DNA of 64,000 nt from Solirubrobacteraceae bacterium (GTDB taxonomy: Bacteria > Actinomycetota > Thermoleophilia > Solirubrobacterales > Solirubrobacteraceae), in the NCBI GenBank assembly GCA_031177685.1, contig JAPSGI010000001.1, forward strand, positions 124,001 to 188,000, written 5' to 3'. Below, piece by piece: positions 51,620-55,074 of the stretch. The notes below the pieces were generated by a model. The model was given only the letters and a program-made list of their open reading frames with translations. It was not told the origin of the DNA and searched no databases. Each line of letters begins with the position of its first letter. The stretch's first letter is position 1. A program made the translations under genes and the position numbers.

Positions 51620-51698
51620 CGTTTCGGTGCCCTCCGTCGCTTGCCGGATCTGCCGGTCAAGGCTATCGCGGTGGGGGCACGGGTACGCTTCCGCCGCG

Positions 51699-52808
51699 AT
51701 GGACCACCGGTTCACGGGGCCCAACTACACGCTCGGCATCGAGGAGGAGTTGATGATCCTCGACGAAGAGACTCTCGACCTCGCGAACATGATCGAGGCG
51801 ATGCTCGAGTCCACGGCGGCCGAGACGGGCGGCGAGGTCAAGCCGGAGCTCATGGAGTCGGTGCTGGAGATCGCCACCGACCCGTGTCCCAGCACCGTCG
51901 AGGCGGGCAAGCAGCTGCGCGAGCTGCGGCGCAGCGTGCGGGAGACCGCGGCCGGCAAGGGACTGTCGATCGGATCGGCGGGCACGCATCCCTTCGCCAT
52001 GTGGGAGGACCAGCGGATCGTCGCGCGCCCCCGCTACCGCGACCTGATCAGCGCGCTGCGCTTCGTGGCGCGCCAGGAGATCATCTTCGGCATCCACGTG
52101 CACGTCGGGCTCGACGATCCCGACAAGGCGATCCACGTGGCCAACGGGATGCGCGTGCACGTCCCCGCGCTGCTGGCGCTGTCGGCCAACTCGCCGTTCT
52201 GGCGCGGTGACGCCACGGGGCTGGCGTCGACGCGGACGCCGATCTTCCGCGCCTTCCCGCGCGTGGGGATCCCGCCCACCTACAAGGACTGGGACGACTA
52301 CGCGCGGCGCATCCAGTTCATGACCGACTGCGAGGTCGTCGACGACTACACGTACCTCTGGTACGACGTGCGGCCCCACCCCAACCTGGGCACCGTGGAG
52401 ATCCGCGTGATGGACGCGCAGACGCGCGTGGAGCACACGCTGGGGCTGGCCGCACTGGTGCAGGCGCTGGTGCGCGAGCTCGCGGAGCACTTCGAGGCCG
52501 GCAAGCAGCTGTCGCGCTACCCGTACGAGATGCTCGACGAGAACAAGTGGCTCGCCGCCCGCCACGGCCTGGAGGGAGAGATGGTGGACCTGCCCTCGAC
52601 CGAGCGCGTGATGACCAAGCGGCTGGCCAAGCGGCTGATCGACCGCGCGCGCGAGCACGCGCAGGACCTGGGGTCCGACGGCGAGCTGGAGGCGCTCGAC
52701 GACCTGCTGACCCACGGCAACGGCGCCGCCCGCCAGGTCGTGGTCTACGAGGCCAACCACGACCTGCGCGAGGTCGTGGCGGAGATCGTGGGCGCCACCG
52801 CCGGCTAG
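51699..52808 (+). CDS. Carboxylate-amine ligase / glutamate-cysteine ligase type 2 (YbdK-like)
   Basis: A 369-residue ATP-grasp-like ligase of the GCS2 family. It has YTLGIEEELMILDEETLDL, GSAGTHPFAMWEDQ, GIHVHVGLDDPDKAIHVANGMR, SANSPFWRG and VEIRVMDAQTRVEHTLGL. YbdK and EgtA-type enzymes make gamma-glutamylcysteine or related gamma-glutamyl amides, precursors of low-molecular-weight thiols. No other thiol-synthesis gene is beside it. ATG start 9 nt after TACGCT (51684-51689). Confidence 0.88.
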   Translation: MDHRFTGPNYTLGIEEELMILDEETLDLANMIEAMLESTAAETGGEVKPELMESVLEIATDPCPSTVEAGKQLRELRRSVRETAAGKGLSIGSAGTHPFAMWEDQRIVARPRYRDLISALRFVARQEIIFGIHVHVGLDDPDKAIHVANGMRVHVPALLALSANSPFWRGDATGLASTRTPIFRAFPRVGIPPTYKDWDDYARRIQFMTDCEVVDDYTYLWYDVRPHPNLGTVEIRVMDAQTRVEHTLGLAALVQALVRELAEHFEAGKQLSRYPYEMLDENKWLAARHGLEGEMVDLPSTERVMTKRLAKRLIDRAREHAQDLGSDGELEALDDLLTHGNGAARQVVVYEANHDLREVVAEIVGATAG

Positions 52809-52841: not shown

Positions 52842-53603
52842 ATGTCGTCCGGCGCGGACCTCTTCGTGGTGTGCAAGTCGTGTGGCTCCGAGGTGAGCCC
52901 TTACATCACCGAGTGTCCGTACTGCGGGAGCCGCCTGCGCAAGCGCGCGCCCAAGCTCGACAAGGGCGGCCAGCCCCGCGAGCGGCGCGGCCTGCGGCGG
53001 GCGCCGCGGCCCTCTCTGAGCCCGCTCAAGCCCGGCGAGATGCCGGGGATCCGGCTGGAGCAGCGCCCGTGGGCGACCCTGGGCTTGGTCCTGGCGAGCG
53101 TGCTCGCGTCCGTGGTCCTGCAGAGCAACTGGTCGCGGGCGGGCGATCTGCTGCTCGTGGGCCCGCTGGACGGGGACTGGTGGCGTCTGGCGACCACCTC
53201 GTTCGTCTACGACAACACGGGCTACGCGCTGGTCGCGCTGCTGACGATCGCGCTGTTCGGGTGGCTCCTGGAGCGCCGGCACGGACACGTGGTGCCGGTG
53301 CTCGTGTTCCTGCTCTGCGGCGCGGCGGGAATGGGGCTGGAGGTCGCGATCGAGAGCTTCCCGGTCGCCGCGGGCGGGAACGCGGCCGGGCTGGGGCTGC
53401 TGTGCGCCTGGGCCGTGCCGGACCTGCTGGCGCGCCGCCGGGGCTCGGAGACCGACTCGGACCTGCTGGGCGCTCTGGTGATCGCACTCGTTCTGCTCGC
53501 GATCCCCCTCGCCGCTGCGGAGGCGAGCTGGGTCGCGGCGGCGGGCGGCGCCGCGGCCGGGCTCTTGCTCGGGCTCTTTTTGAACGCCGCGCGCCGCCAC
53601 TGA
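52842..53603 (+). CDS. Zinc-ribbon rhomboid-like pseudoprotease
   Basis: A 253-residue membrane protein. An N-terminal zinc ribbon (Cys11, Cys14, Cys25, Cys28) is followed by a basic linker and six hydrophobic segments. The rhomboid landmark GDWWRLATTSF (111-121) is present. The catalytic GxSG is GGNAAGLGL (178-186), so Ser is replaced near Asn180. The second catalytic His is AAAGGAAAG (Ala at about 233). It is therefore unlikely to be a protease and may resemble iRhom-type regulators. ATG start behind TACAAT. Confidence 0.8.
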   Translation: MSSGADLFVVCKSCGSEVSPYITECPYCGSRLRKRAPKLDKGGQPRERRGLRRAPRPSLSPLKPGEMPGIRLEQRPWATLGLVLASVLASVVLQSNWSRAGDLLLVGPLDGDWWRLATTSFVYDNTGYALVALLTIALFGWLLERRHGHVVPVLVFLLCGAAGMGLEVAIESFPVAAGGNAAGLGLLCAWAVPDLLARRRGSETDSDLLGALVIALVLLAIPLAAAEASWVAAAGGAAAGLLLGLFLNAARRH

Positions 53604-53701: not shown

Positions 53702-54718
53702 CTACGCGCGGACCTCGATTCGTCCCGGAACTCCCTCGGTTAAGTGCCCGATCACGCTCCCCGGGACCTGACCGGCCCGGTCCGGGTCCAGCGCGACCAG
53801 GAGCCCGCCGGACGTCATGGGGTCACAGAGCAAGCGCGTGCGAGCAGGAGAAACGCCCGAATCGAACGCGGCGAACCCCGACGCGTCCGAAAAATTGCGC
53901 CGCAACCCCCCACTCACCGCCTCCTGACCAGCCAGCAGTTCACACGCGCCCGAAATAGCCGGAACCGCCCCCGCACTGAGCTCCGCCGACACCCCACTCG
54001 CCAAGCAAAGCTCGTGCAGGTGGCCGAGGAGACCAAACCCGGTCACGTCCGTCACCGCGGAGGCGCCAGCGGATCGAGCGGCGGCGGAGGCCGAAGCGTT
54101 GAGCTCGGTCATGACCGCCACGGCGGCGGCCACATGCTCAGGGCCGGCGACGCCGTGCTTGGTCGCGGTCGCGATCGCGCCCGTCCCCAGCGGCTTGGTC
54201 AGGACCAAAGCGTCCCCGGCCCGCGCGCCCGCGTTGGTCAGCAGCTCATCCGGGTGCACCACGCCCGTCACGGCCAGCCCGTACTTCGGCTCGCGATCCT
54301 CGATCGAGTGCCCGCCCACGATCACCGCCCCGGCCGAGGAGACGACCTCGGAGCCCCCGCGCAGGATCTCCCGCAGCACCTCGACGCCCAGAGACTCCAC
54401 CGAGAAGGCCACCAGGCTCAGCGCCGTCAAAGGCCGGCCCCCCATCGCGTACACGTCCGACAGGGCATTGGCCGCCGCGATCCGCCCGAAGTCGTACGGG
54501 TCGTCCACGATCGGCGTGAAGAAGTCCACGGTCTGGACCAGGGCCAGGTCGTCGCGCAGCCGGTACACCCCCGCGTCGTCGGCCGTCCCGGGCCCGACCA
54601 GGACCTCGGGGGGCAGGGCCCCGTCGAGCCCGGACAGGACCTGCCGCAGATCCGACGCGCCGAGCTTGCAGCCGCAGCCCGCGCCGGGGGAGAGCTCCGT
54701 GAGGCGGACCGCGGGCAC
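53702..54718 (-). CDS. selD: Selenide, water dikinase
   Basis: Makes selenophosphate for selenocysteine and selenouridine. The 338-residue product has the N-terminal GCGCKLG loop (Cys15 catalytic, Cys17, Lys18), GTADDAGVYRLRDDLALVQTVDFFTPIVDDPYDFGRIAAANALSDVYAMGG, VGGHSIEDREPKYGLAVTGVV and TDVTGFGLLGHLHEL. The catalytic position is Cys, not Sec. GTG 54718 is chosen because the family begins there; upstream frame is a shadow. Base composition is lower than neighbours and a TTA codon is at 53741-53743. No selA/selB nearby. Confidence 0.95.
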   Translation of the reverse strand: MPAVRLTELSPGAGCGCKLGASDLRQVLSGLDGALPPEVLVGPGTADDAGVYRLRDDLALVQTVDFFTPIVDDPYDFGRIAAANALSDVYAMGGRPLTALSLVAFSVESLGVEVLREILRGGSEVVSSAGAVIVGGHSIEDREPKYGLAVTGVVHPDELLTNAGARAGDALVLTKPLGTGAIATATKHGVAGPEHVAAAVAVMTELNASASAAARSAGASAVTDVTGFGLLGHLHELCLASGVSAELSAGAVPAISGACELLAGQEAVSGGLRRNFSDASGFAAFDSGVSPARTRLLCDPMTSGGLLVALDPDRAGQVPGSVIGHLTEGVPGRIEVRA

Positions 54719-54723
54719 GAACG

Positions 54724-54729
54724 TATGAT
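54724..54729 (+). promoter_or_regulatory. -10 box TATGAT for the 54736 gene
   Basis: TATGAT is 6 nt before the GTG at 54736, the closest match to consensus TATAAT in this window. The 17-bp gap to divergent selD means both promoters overlap. Confidence 0.55.
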
Positions 54730-54735
54730 GACGCC

Positions 54736-55074
54736 GTGCTCGAGGGGCCCTACAGCGACGCGGAGATCGACGCGGCGGTGGAGGCGCTGAGCGACCCCGA
54801 GCGGCTCGCCGGCGCACGCGACACGGTCGCGCGGCTGGCGCCCCAGCTCCAGACGATCCTGGACCGAGCGCTCGCCGAGGGCGGGTGGTTCGCCGCCGCC
54901 CACGACGACCAGCTCAACCGCGTCGCCGCCGAAACCGACCCGCAGGCCCGGCGCCACGCGGTCGGCGCGCTGGTCGCCGAGGAGACGCGGCTGGGCATGC
55001 TCGTGGGGGTCGCAGTGGGGATCGAGCTGGCCCGCGAGCTGGCCAGGCATCCGAACACCAGTGAGGAGAACTGA
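54736..55074 (+). CDS. Small helical protein of unknown function
   Basis: A 112-residue, mainly helical acidic protein (YSDAEIDAAVEALSDPERLAGARDTVARLAPQLQTILDRALAEGG, then FAAAHDDQLNRVAAETDPQARRHAVGALVAEETRLGMLVGVAVGIELAREL). No membrane segment is convincing. GTG start directly behind TATGAT. It is followed immediately by the UPF0173 gene (1 bp after the stop), so the two are probably co-transcribed. Confidence 0.6.
   Translation: MLEGPYSDAEIDAAVEALSDPERLAGARDTVARLAPQLQTILDRALAEGGWFAAAHDDQLNRVAAETDPQARRHAVGALVAEETRLGMLVGVAVGIELARELARHPNTSEEN

Follow-up and report, generated by a model that had tools for sequence, protein, structure and literature searches.

A zinc-ribbon rhomboid of Solirubrobacterales with family-wide loss of the protease active site

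Introduction

Knowledge of dedicated rhomboid pseudoproteases comes mainly from eukaryotes, which have the iRhoms and the Derlins. According to a review, a non-catalytic rhomboid fold retains the ability to recognise membrane proteins and to thin the bilayer (PMC12615303). The bacterial adaptor role has so far come from YqgP (GluP) of B. subtilis, described as a still active enzyme that presents MgtE to FtsH independently of its own protease activity; this FtsH-adaptor function is reported to require a metal-binding N-terminal domain (PMC7231995). Streptomyces rhomboids with zinc fingers are described as keeping their catalytic residues (PMC4467639). Here we analyse a gene from a Solirubrobacteraceae bacterium (Actinomycetota; Thermoleophilia; Solirubrobacterales, an order of soil bacteria; assembly GCA_031177685.1) that encodes a rhomboid with an N-terminal zinc ribbon and without the catalytic residues, referred to below as the pseudo-rhomboid. 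It lies in a 64,000-nucleotide stretch (contig JAPSGI010000001.1, positions 124,001 to 188,000, forward strand), which we call the window and in which all coordinates are given.

In the open-access literature, searched by title and abstract, we found no description of a clade-wide bacterial rhomboid pseudoprotease or of such a ribbon fusion. The fold and the pseudoprotease concept are already known, and the new part is an order-wide, dedicated bacterial rhomboid pseudoprotease with this ribbon.

Protein layout and fold

The protein begins with a zinc ribbon and a basic tail (RLRKRAPKL), which a variable linker joins to a rhomboid domain of six helices. Its features are as follows.

52842..53603, plus strand: zinc-ribbon pseudo-rhomboid gene, an open reading frame with ATG start encoding 253 amino acids (aa)
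52860..52958, plus strand: zinc ribbon (Cys11, Cys14, Cys25, Cys28) and basic tail, residues 7-39, predicted cytosolic
53067..53597, plus strand: six-helix rhomboid fold, residues 76-252
53223..53237, plus strand: Tyr128 and Ala132 in place of the canonical helix-2 His and Asn, residues 128-132
53379..53381, plus strand: Asn180 codon at the catalytic Ser position
53538..53540, plus strand: Ala233 codon at the catalytic His position

Relatives were found in 59 of the 61 genomes searched, its own genome counted. Set A1 comprises 55 of these 59 relatives (L008 and L018 were removed by a motif filter, L042 as a near copy and L065 for lying at a contig edge). Set A3 comprises the window sequence and 78 of the 80 named loci from a wider scan described below (L107 was taken as a copy of L106, and L150 is cut). 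The two sets overlap in genomes and their counts are not additive.

Pfam Rhomboid (PF01694) matches the window protein at 5.5e-13, with 49.8 bits against a curated cut-off of 22.6, and matches all 79 members of A3 at E 0.01 or better. An AlphaFold2 model, with 79 sequences as input, has a mean predicted local distance difference test score (pLDDT) of 88.8; values mostly exceed 90 in the membrane part and drop to about 59-70 in the linker. The original prediction had taken the GDWWR motif and the six-helix layout to be intact, and they are: GDWWR occupies residues 111-115, and the model contains six long helices (77-94, 126-147, 150-170, 180-199, 208-224 and 230-252). The closest solved fold is GlpG (Z 20.5, root-mean-square deviation 2.7 over 170 residues), followed by matches to iRhom1 (Z 17.4), iRhom2 (Z 15.4) and Derlin-1 (Z 11.6). 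Across individual structures, scores span Z 14.0-17.4 for iRhom1 and iRhom2 and Z 10.2-11.6 for the Derlins (yeast Der1, human Derlin-1). By fold, the pseudo-rhomboid belongs to the rhomboid superfamily. GlpG homology puts both ends of the protein in the cytosol; we thus expect a cytoplasmic-membrane protein whose ribbon faces the cytosol. A match to rhombosortase (NCBIfam) was weak, far below the cut-off of that model.

Loss of the active site

From the window sequence it had been proposed that the catalytic Ser and the helix-6 His are replaced by Asn180, within the motif GGNAAGL, and by Ala233. Both replacements were confirmed in the open reading frame and by profile alignment with the solved H. 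influenzae GlpG (2nr9), whose GxSG Ser falls on the family column of Asn180 and whose helix-6 His falls on column 233, a Gly/Ala column in the family. The loss extends to related genomes. Among the 79 A3 members, position 180 holds Asn in 67, Ser in 3, Gln in 3, Pro in 2, His in 2, Thr in 1 and Val in 1, and position 233 holds Gly in 47, Ala in 18, Asp in 8, Glu in 2, Val in 2, Leu in 1, Thr in 1 and His in none. None of the three members with Ser180 has His at 233, leaving a Ser-His pair in 0 of 79. In A1 (n=55), position 180 is Asn in 36, Ser in 2 and another residue in 17, with no His at 233. All 55 other rhomboids that were fetched from the class, both own-genome paralogs among them, keep the dyad.

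The helix-2 residues are replaced as well. Canonical rhomboids (n=55; found in related genomes through the family sequence or profile, with both own-genome rhomboids added, and not sampled at random) carry His at 123 in 54, His at 128 in 53 and Asn at 132 in 52. The window protein has Tyr123, Tyr128 and Ala132, and the family mostly has Tyr, Tyr, and Ala or Thr at these positions (in A3, Tyr128 in 63/79 and Asn132 in 0/79).

A realignment that brought back a Ser-His pair would have refuted the original prediction, and none was found in A1 or A3. A shifted alignment was rejected on the absence of His from column 233 in every member of both sets. His does occur within columns 228-252 in 3 A1 and 12 A3 members, at helix ends and mostly near the C-terminus. 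The dyad pattern matched one of the 55 A1 members (L014), and this match was rejected as false, since it pairs a Ser located ahead of helix 4 with a His from the loop that follows this helix. Continued proteolysis by some catalytic arrangement not yet recognised might draw on the retained scaffold glycines and WR motif and on the three A3 members with Ser180; however, His is missing both at 233 and throughout columns 126-135 (0/79 in A3, 0/55 in A1), and the nucleophile column is variable, so that we find this scarcely credible.

Family-wide loss of the active site is well supported by these alignments. The window protein lacks the GxSG Ser, the helix-6 His and the helix-2 His and Asn of active rhomboids, and it is almost certainly dead as a catalyst.

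Selection and conserved residues of the rhomboid domain

In 49 pairs of close relatives, the median ratio of nonsynonymous to synonymous substitution rates (dN/dS) is 0.285 for the rhomboid part. Together with a reading frame that is open throughout in most relatives, this value led us to reject a decaying pseudogene. Both the ribbon and the rhomboid part are under purifying selection. By its fold, its lost catalytic residues and its retention under selection, the family falls in the class of rhomboid pseudoproteases, with inactivity predicted from the residues.

The family keeps the WR motif, G140, E144, G148, G163, G178, G236 and G240 in common with canonical rhomboids. It also has conserved residues of its own, R146 (77/79), W190 (79/79) and D207 (79/79), which are not conserved in canonical rhomboids, and P222 is likewise new to the family. 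Judging by the helix limits of the model and GlpG topology, the cytosolic ends of helices hold E144, R146, G148 and D207, and W190 belongs to the half of helix 4 nearer the cytosol. Surface conservation seems to have moved away from the catalytic cavity and towards the side facing the cytosol.

The zinc ribbon

The four Cys residues that the original prediction assigned to a fused N-terminal zinc ribbon form two CxxC knuckles and are present in all 79 A3 members. They fit a C4 zinc ribbon, and the protein would bind zinc through them. The best generic model for the window ribbon is Zn_Ribbon_1, at 22.8 bits slightly below its Pfam cut-off of 25. A search of solved structures did not identify the ribbon, the best match being a split one to LysW at E 0.0073.

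Ribbon and basic tail are far better conserved than the rhomboid fold. In A3, residues 7-39 have a mean column entropy of 0.41 bits, compared with 1.29-1.84 bits in blocks of the membrane part and 1.86 bits in the linker; in the 49 close pairs, the ribbon part has a mean proportion of nonsynonymous differences (pN) of 0.021 and a mean proportion of synonymous differences (pS) of 0.40. Invariant residues other than Cys include S19, T23, E24, P26, Y27, G29, R31 and A36.

The C4 ribbon is followed by a near-invariant basic stretch, RLRKRAPK, and the ribbon profile gave weak matches (E 0.25-2.7) to L32, a bacterial ribosomal protein, and to archaeal Zn-ribbon RNA-binding proteins. Both would suit a membrane-anchored ribosome- or RNA-binding factor that attaches to rRNA or the ribosome by its ribbon and tail, with the rhomboid fold serving as an anchor or aiding membrane-protein insertion. 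We consider this unlikely, as these profile matches are not significant, and the purifying selection on the rhomboid domain and its own invariant residues exceed what a plain anchor needs.

C4 ribbons usually hold zinc tightly and structurally, which counts against a metal sensor in which zinc occupancy of the ribbon alters the rhomboid part and tunes a transporter. Conservation also reaches well beyond the Cys residues (S19, T23, E24, Y27, R31, R35, A36), which points to a docking surface instead. The invariance of the four Cys would be consistent with sensing, as would the published precedent of the YqgP N-terminal domain acting on MgtE (PMC7231995); on balance, we regard a sensor as quite improbable.

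Distribution and phylogeny

A scan of an 84,980-species collection gave 191 confirmed relatives, 80 of which were kept as loci. These are titled Solirubrobacterales or members of that order (Solirubrobacter, Conexibacter, Thermoleophilaceae), loosely named actinobacteria and, in two cases, Bifidobacterium breve. The last two (L165, L167) are public records of metagenome-assembled genomes with Solirubrobacterales-type genes, and their titles are apparently wrong. Of 151 order genomes, 141 contain the ribbon, each with exactly one match. The full profile matches every one of the 23 order genomes in the class sample at 4e-60 or better, and the best match outside the order is at 1.5e-18; seven non-order matches taken as loci (L201-L207) are ordinary rhomboids with the dyad. 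Some of the 59 genomes with relatives contain weaker matches, and six that were fetched (L059-L064) are also ordinary rhomboids.

A general actinobacterial feature was rejected on a search of 396 genomes of the phylum with the ribbon profile (A2), in which no more than 19 first-look candidates were scored for any genome. The profile is strong only within the order: 13 of 13 order genomes matched at 3.3e-24 or better, and the best match outside was at 5.7e-7. In the samples searched, the pseudo-rhomboid family is found only in Solirubrobacterales, as judged by these profile matches. In a tree with 52 of the 55 canonical sequences (three gappy ones were left out), the family forms one clade separate from them, with support of 0.957 and a long stem. 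Because of this separate, long-stemmed clade and the order-restricted spread, loss of the active site was most likely a single event at the root of the order.

Active rhomboids occur alongside the family. The own genome has two further rhomboids, both dyad-bearing, and each of the 23 order genomes in the class sample has at least one more A1 match besides the family member, those fetched carrying the dyad. This would accord with an iRhom-like regulator, a dead rhomboid that binds the substrates of active rhomboids, or active rhomboids themselves, and restrains them; the best pseudoprotease fold match, iRhom1, points the same way. However, conservation is strongest in the predicted cytosolic ribbon and not on the substrate-facing side. 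Moreover, helices 1 and 2 of iRhoms are separated by a large extracytosolic domain, which is absent from the model, where only residues 95-125 lie between these helices. An iRhom-like regulator is distinctly unlikely in our judgement.

The original prediction had called the protein unusual. This stands for the particular ribbon, for how little it varies and for an active site that is lost completely, but not for the presence of an N-terminal zinc finger, which is nothing out of the ordinary on actinobacterial rhomboids, dyad-bearing ones included.

Gene neighbourhood

Three neighbouring genes are considered here.

51699..52808, plus strand: YbdK/GCS2-type carboxylate-amine ligase (start inferred, the open reading frame listing beginning at 51627; Pfam GCS2 4.8e-60, NCBIfam PRK13515)
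53702..54817, minus strand: selD, selenide, water dikinase (NCBIfam TIGR00476, 8.6e-119)
54736..55074, plus strand: 112-aa helical protein of no known family, candidate partner, order-restricted and often directly downstream of the pseudo-rhomboid

The ligase gene ends 33 base pairs (bp) upstream of the pseudo-rhomboid in the window and lies 19-126 bp upstream of it in 48 of the 74 loci with more than 1300 bp of upstream sequence; the two genes are likely in one operon. A selD match occurs in the neighbourhood of 18 of 80 loci. Here and in some relatives, though not in most, selD stands between the pseudo-rhomboid and the 112-aa gene; this selenium-related gene varies, while the rest of the block is syntenic.

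At 46 of the 80 loci, the gap from the pseudo-rhomboid to the downstream 112-aa gene is no more than 130 bp; the gene lies farther away at 21 loci and was not found at 13; in the window the gap is 1132 bp, with selD on the opposite strand in between. A further set, A4, comprises the window and 65 of 67 loci (L107 and L176 are out). The 112-aa protein occurs in 21 of 118 class genomes, all of them from the order, and in 131 of 151 order genomes. It has no Pfam or NCBIfam match, its model is helical (pLDDT 88), and a fold search of the PDB gave nothing at E 0.001. A conserved helix reads EETRxGMLVGVAVGxELxxEL. A selenocysteine TGA in this gene, an idea from the nearby selD and TGA counts, was rejected: in three genomes (G049, G055 and G012; loci L009, L041 and L015) the TGA is the natural C-terminal stop. 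The ribbon occurs without a 112-aa match in seven g15 genomes and some others, and the 112-aa protein without a ribbon match in G021, G530 and G597. Since the region is broadly syntenic and one gene sometimes occurs without the other, the 112-aa protein is only a candidate partner.

Proposed function

Our tentative proposal, to which we give somewhat less than an even chance, is that the family is a dedicated bacterial rhomboid pseudoprotease acting as an adaptor, with membrane clients bound by the rhomboid part and a cytosolic partner docked by the ribbon. A rhomboid fold stripped of its whole active site would not cleave and would serve as a membrane-thinning scaffold that binds transmembrane segments. 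Ribbon and basic tail would form the effector end, docking one conserved cytosolic partner with the assistance of R146, W190 and D207 on the cytosolic side, and the pseudo-rhomboid would pass its clients on to a cytosolic machine. By analogy with YqgP, an FtsH-type AAA protease is the leading partner candidate, and we would expect FtsH to be the partner in about half of the cases in which the adaptor proposal is right. The 112-aa product is another candidate component.

Several points weigh against this proposal. The window ribbon scores below the cut-offs of the generic zinc-ribbon models that it matches, which thus assign it no ligand, and its invariance would fit nucleic-acid or ribosome binding too. 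The own genome has three matches to FtsH-type M41 peptidases, but these peptidases occur in most bacteria and in 10 of 14 control genomes, and their presence therefore carries little weight. At the locus, ftsH is not among the neighbouring genes identified; the neighbours (GCS2, selD, a metal-dependent hydrolase and enolase) show no link to proteostasis, and adjacency is weak evidence in any case because the neighbourhood is widely syntenic. Client and partner are both inferred.

A further-reaching version of the adaptor proposal, which we put forward as doubtful, is an order-specific, single-copy and vertically inherited pseudoprotease whose ribbon recruits a dislocase or protease, making up a separately evolved system that resembles Derlin-based endoplasmic-reticulum-associated degradation (ERAD). 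Its Derlin-like role, receiving clients and helping an AAA machine to dislocate them, would follow only from the analogy with YqgP (PMC7231995).

The family offers a natural test of the non-cutting functions of the rhomboid fold, and may show if dead rhomboids came into ERAD-like use more than once; the ribbon could be used as bait for the partner. For annotation, the label 'rhomboid intramembrane serine protease', given on a Pfam match alone, would be misleading for such genes.

Comparison with known systems

GlpG-type rhomboid proteases (PF01694) have the fold of the pseudo-rhomboid and, in common with it, the WR motif, E144, G148, G178, G236 and G240. They differ in their catalytic residues, all of which are replaced in the pseudo-rhomboid, and in their N-terminal domains. 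Closer to home, many of the dyad-bearing rhomboids fetched carry a different Cys-rich N-terminus (for example, the Cys pattern CPDCMTPTPVGMRCPEC), presumably B-box-like. These actinobacterial proteins come from the same class and genomes and likewise join a Cys-rich N-terminus to a rhomboid, but the dyad is intact in all that were fetched.

Among eukaryotic pseudoproteases, iRhom1 and iRhom2 resemble the pseudo-rhomboid in being rhomboids without protease function that have a cytosolic N-terminus, though the N-terminus itself is different, and we know of no ADAM17-type partner in these bacteria. The Derlins (yeast Der1, human Derlin-1) are natural rhomboid pseudoproteases with the fold seen in the family, and are eukaryotic. 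The WR motif and the helix-6 GxxxG, both Derlin motifs, are present in the pseudo-rhomboid. The matches listed for the window protein, at E values up to 10, do not include Pfam DER1, the mark of the Derlin family, and only 2 of 79 A3 members match this model at E 0.01 or better (best E 0.00096).

YqgP, as far as its published description goes, is like the pseudo-rhomboid a bacterial rhomboid with a metal-binding cytosolic N-terminal domain; unlike it, YqgP is described as an active protease that cleaves MgtE. On the adaptor proposal, the family would represent a YqgP-like adaptor function turned permanent.
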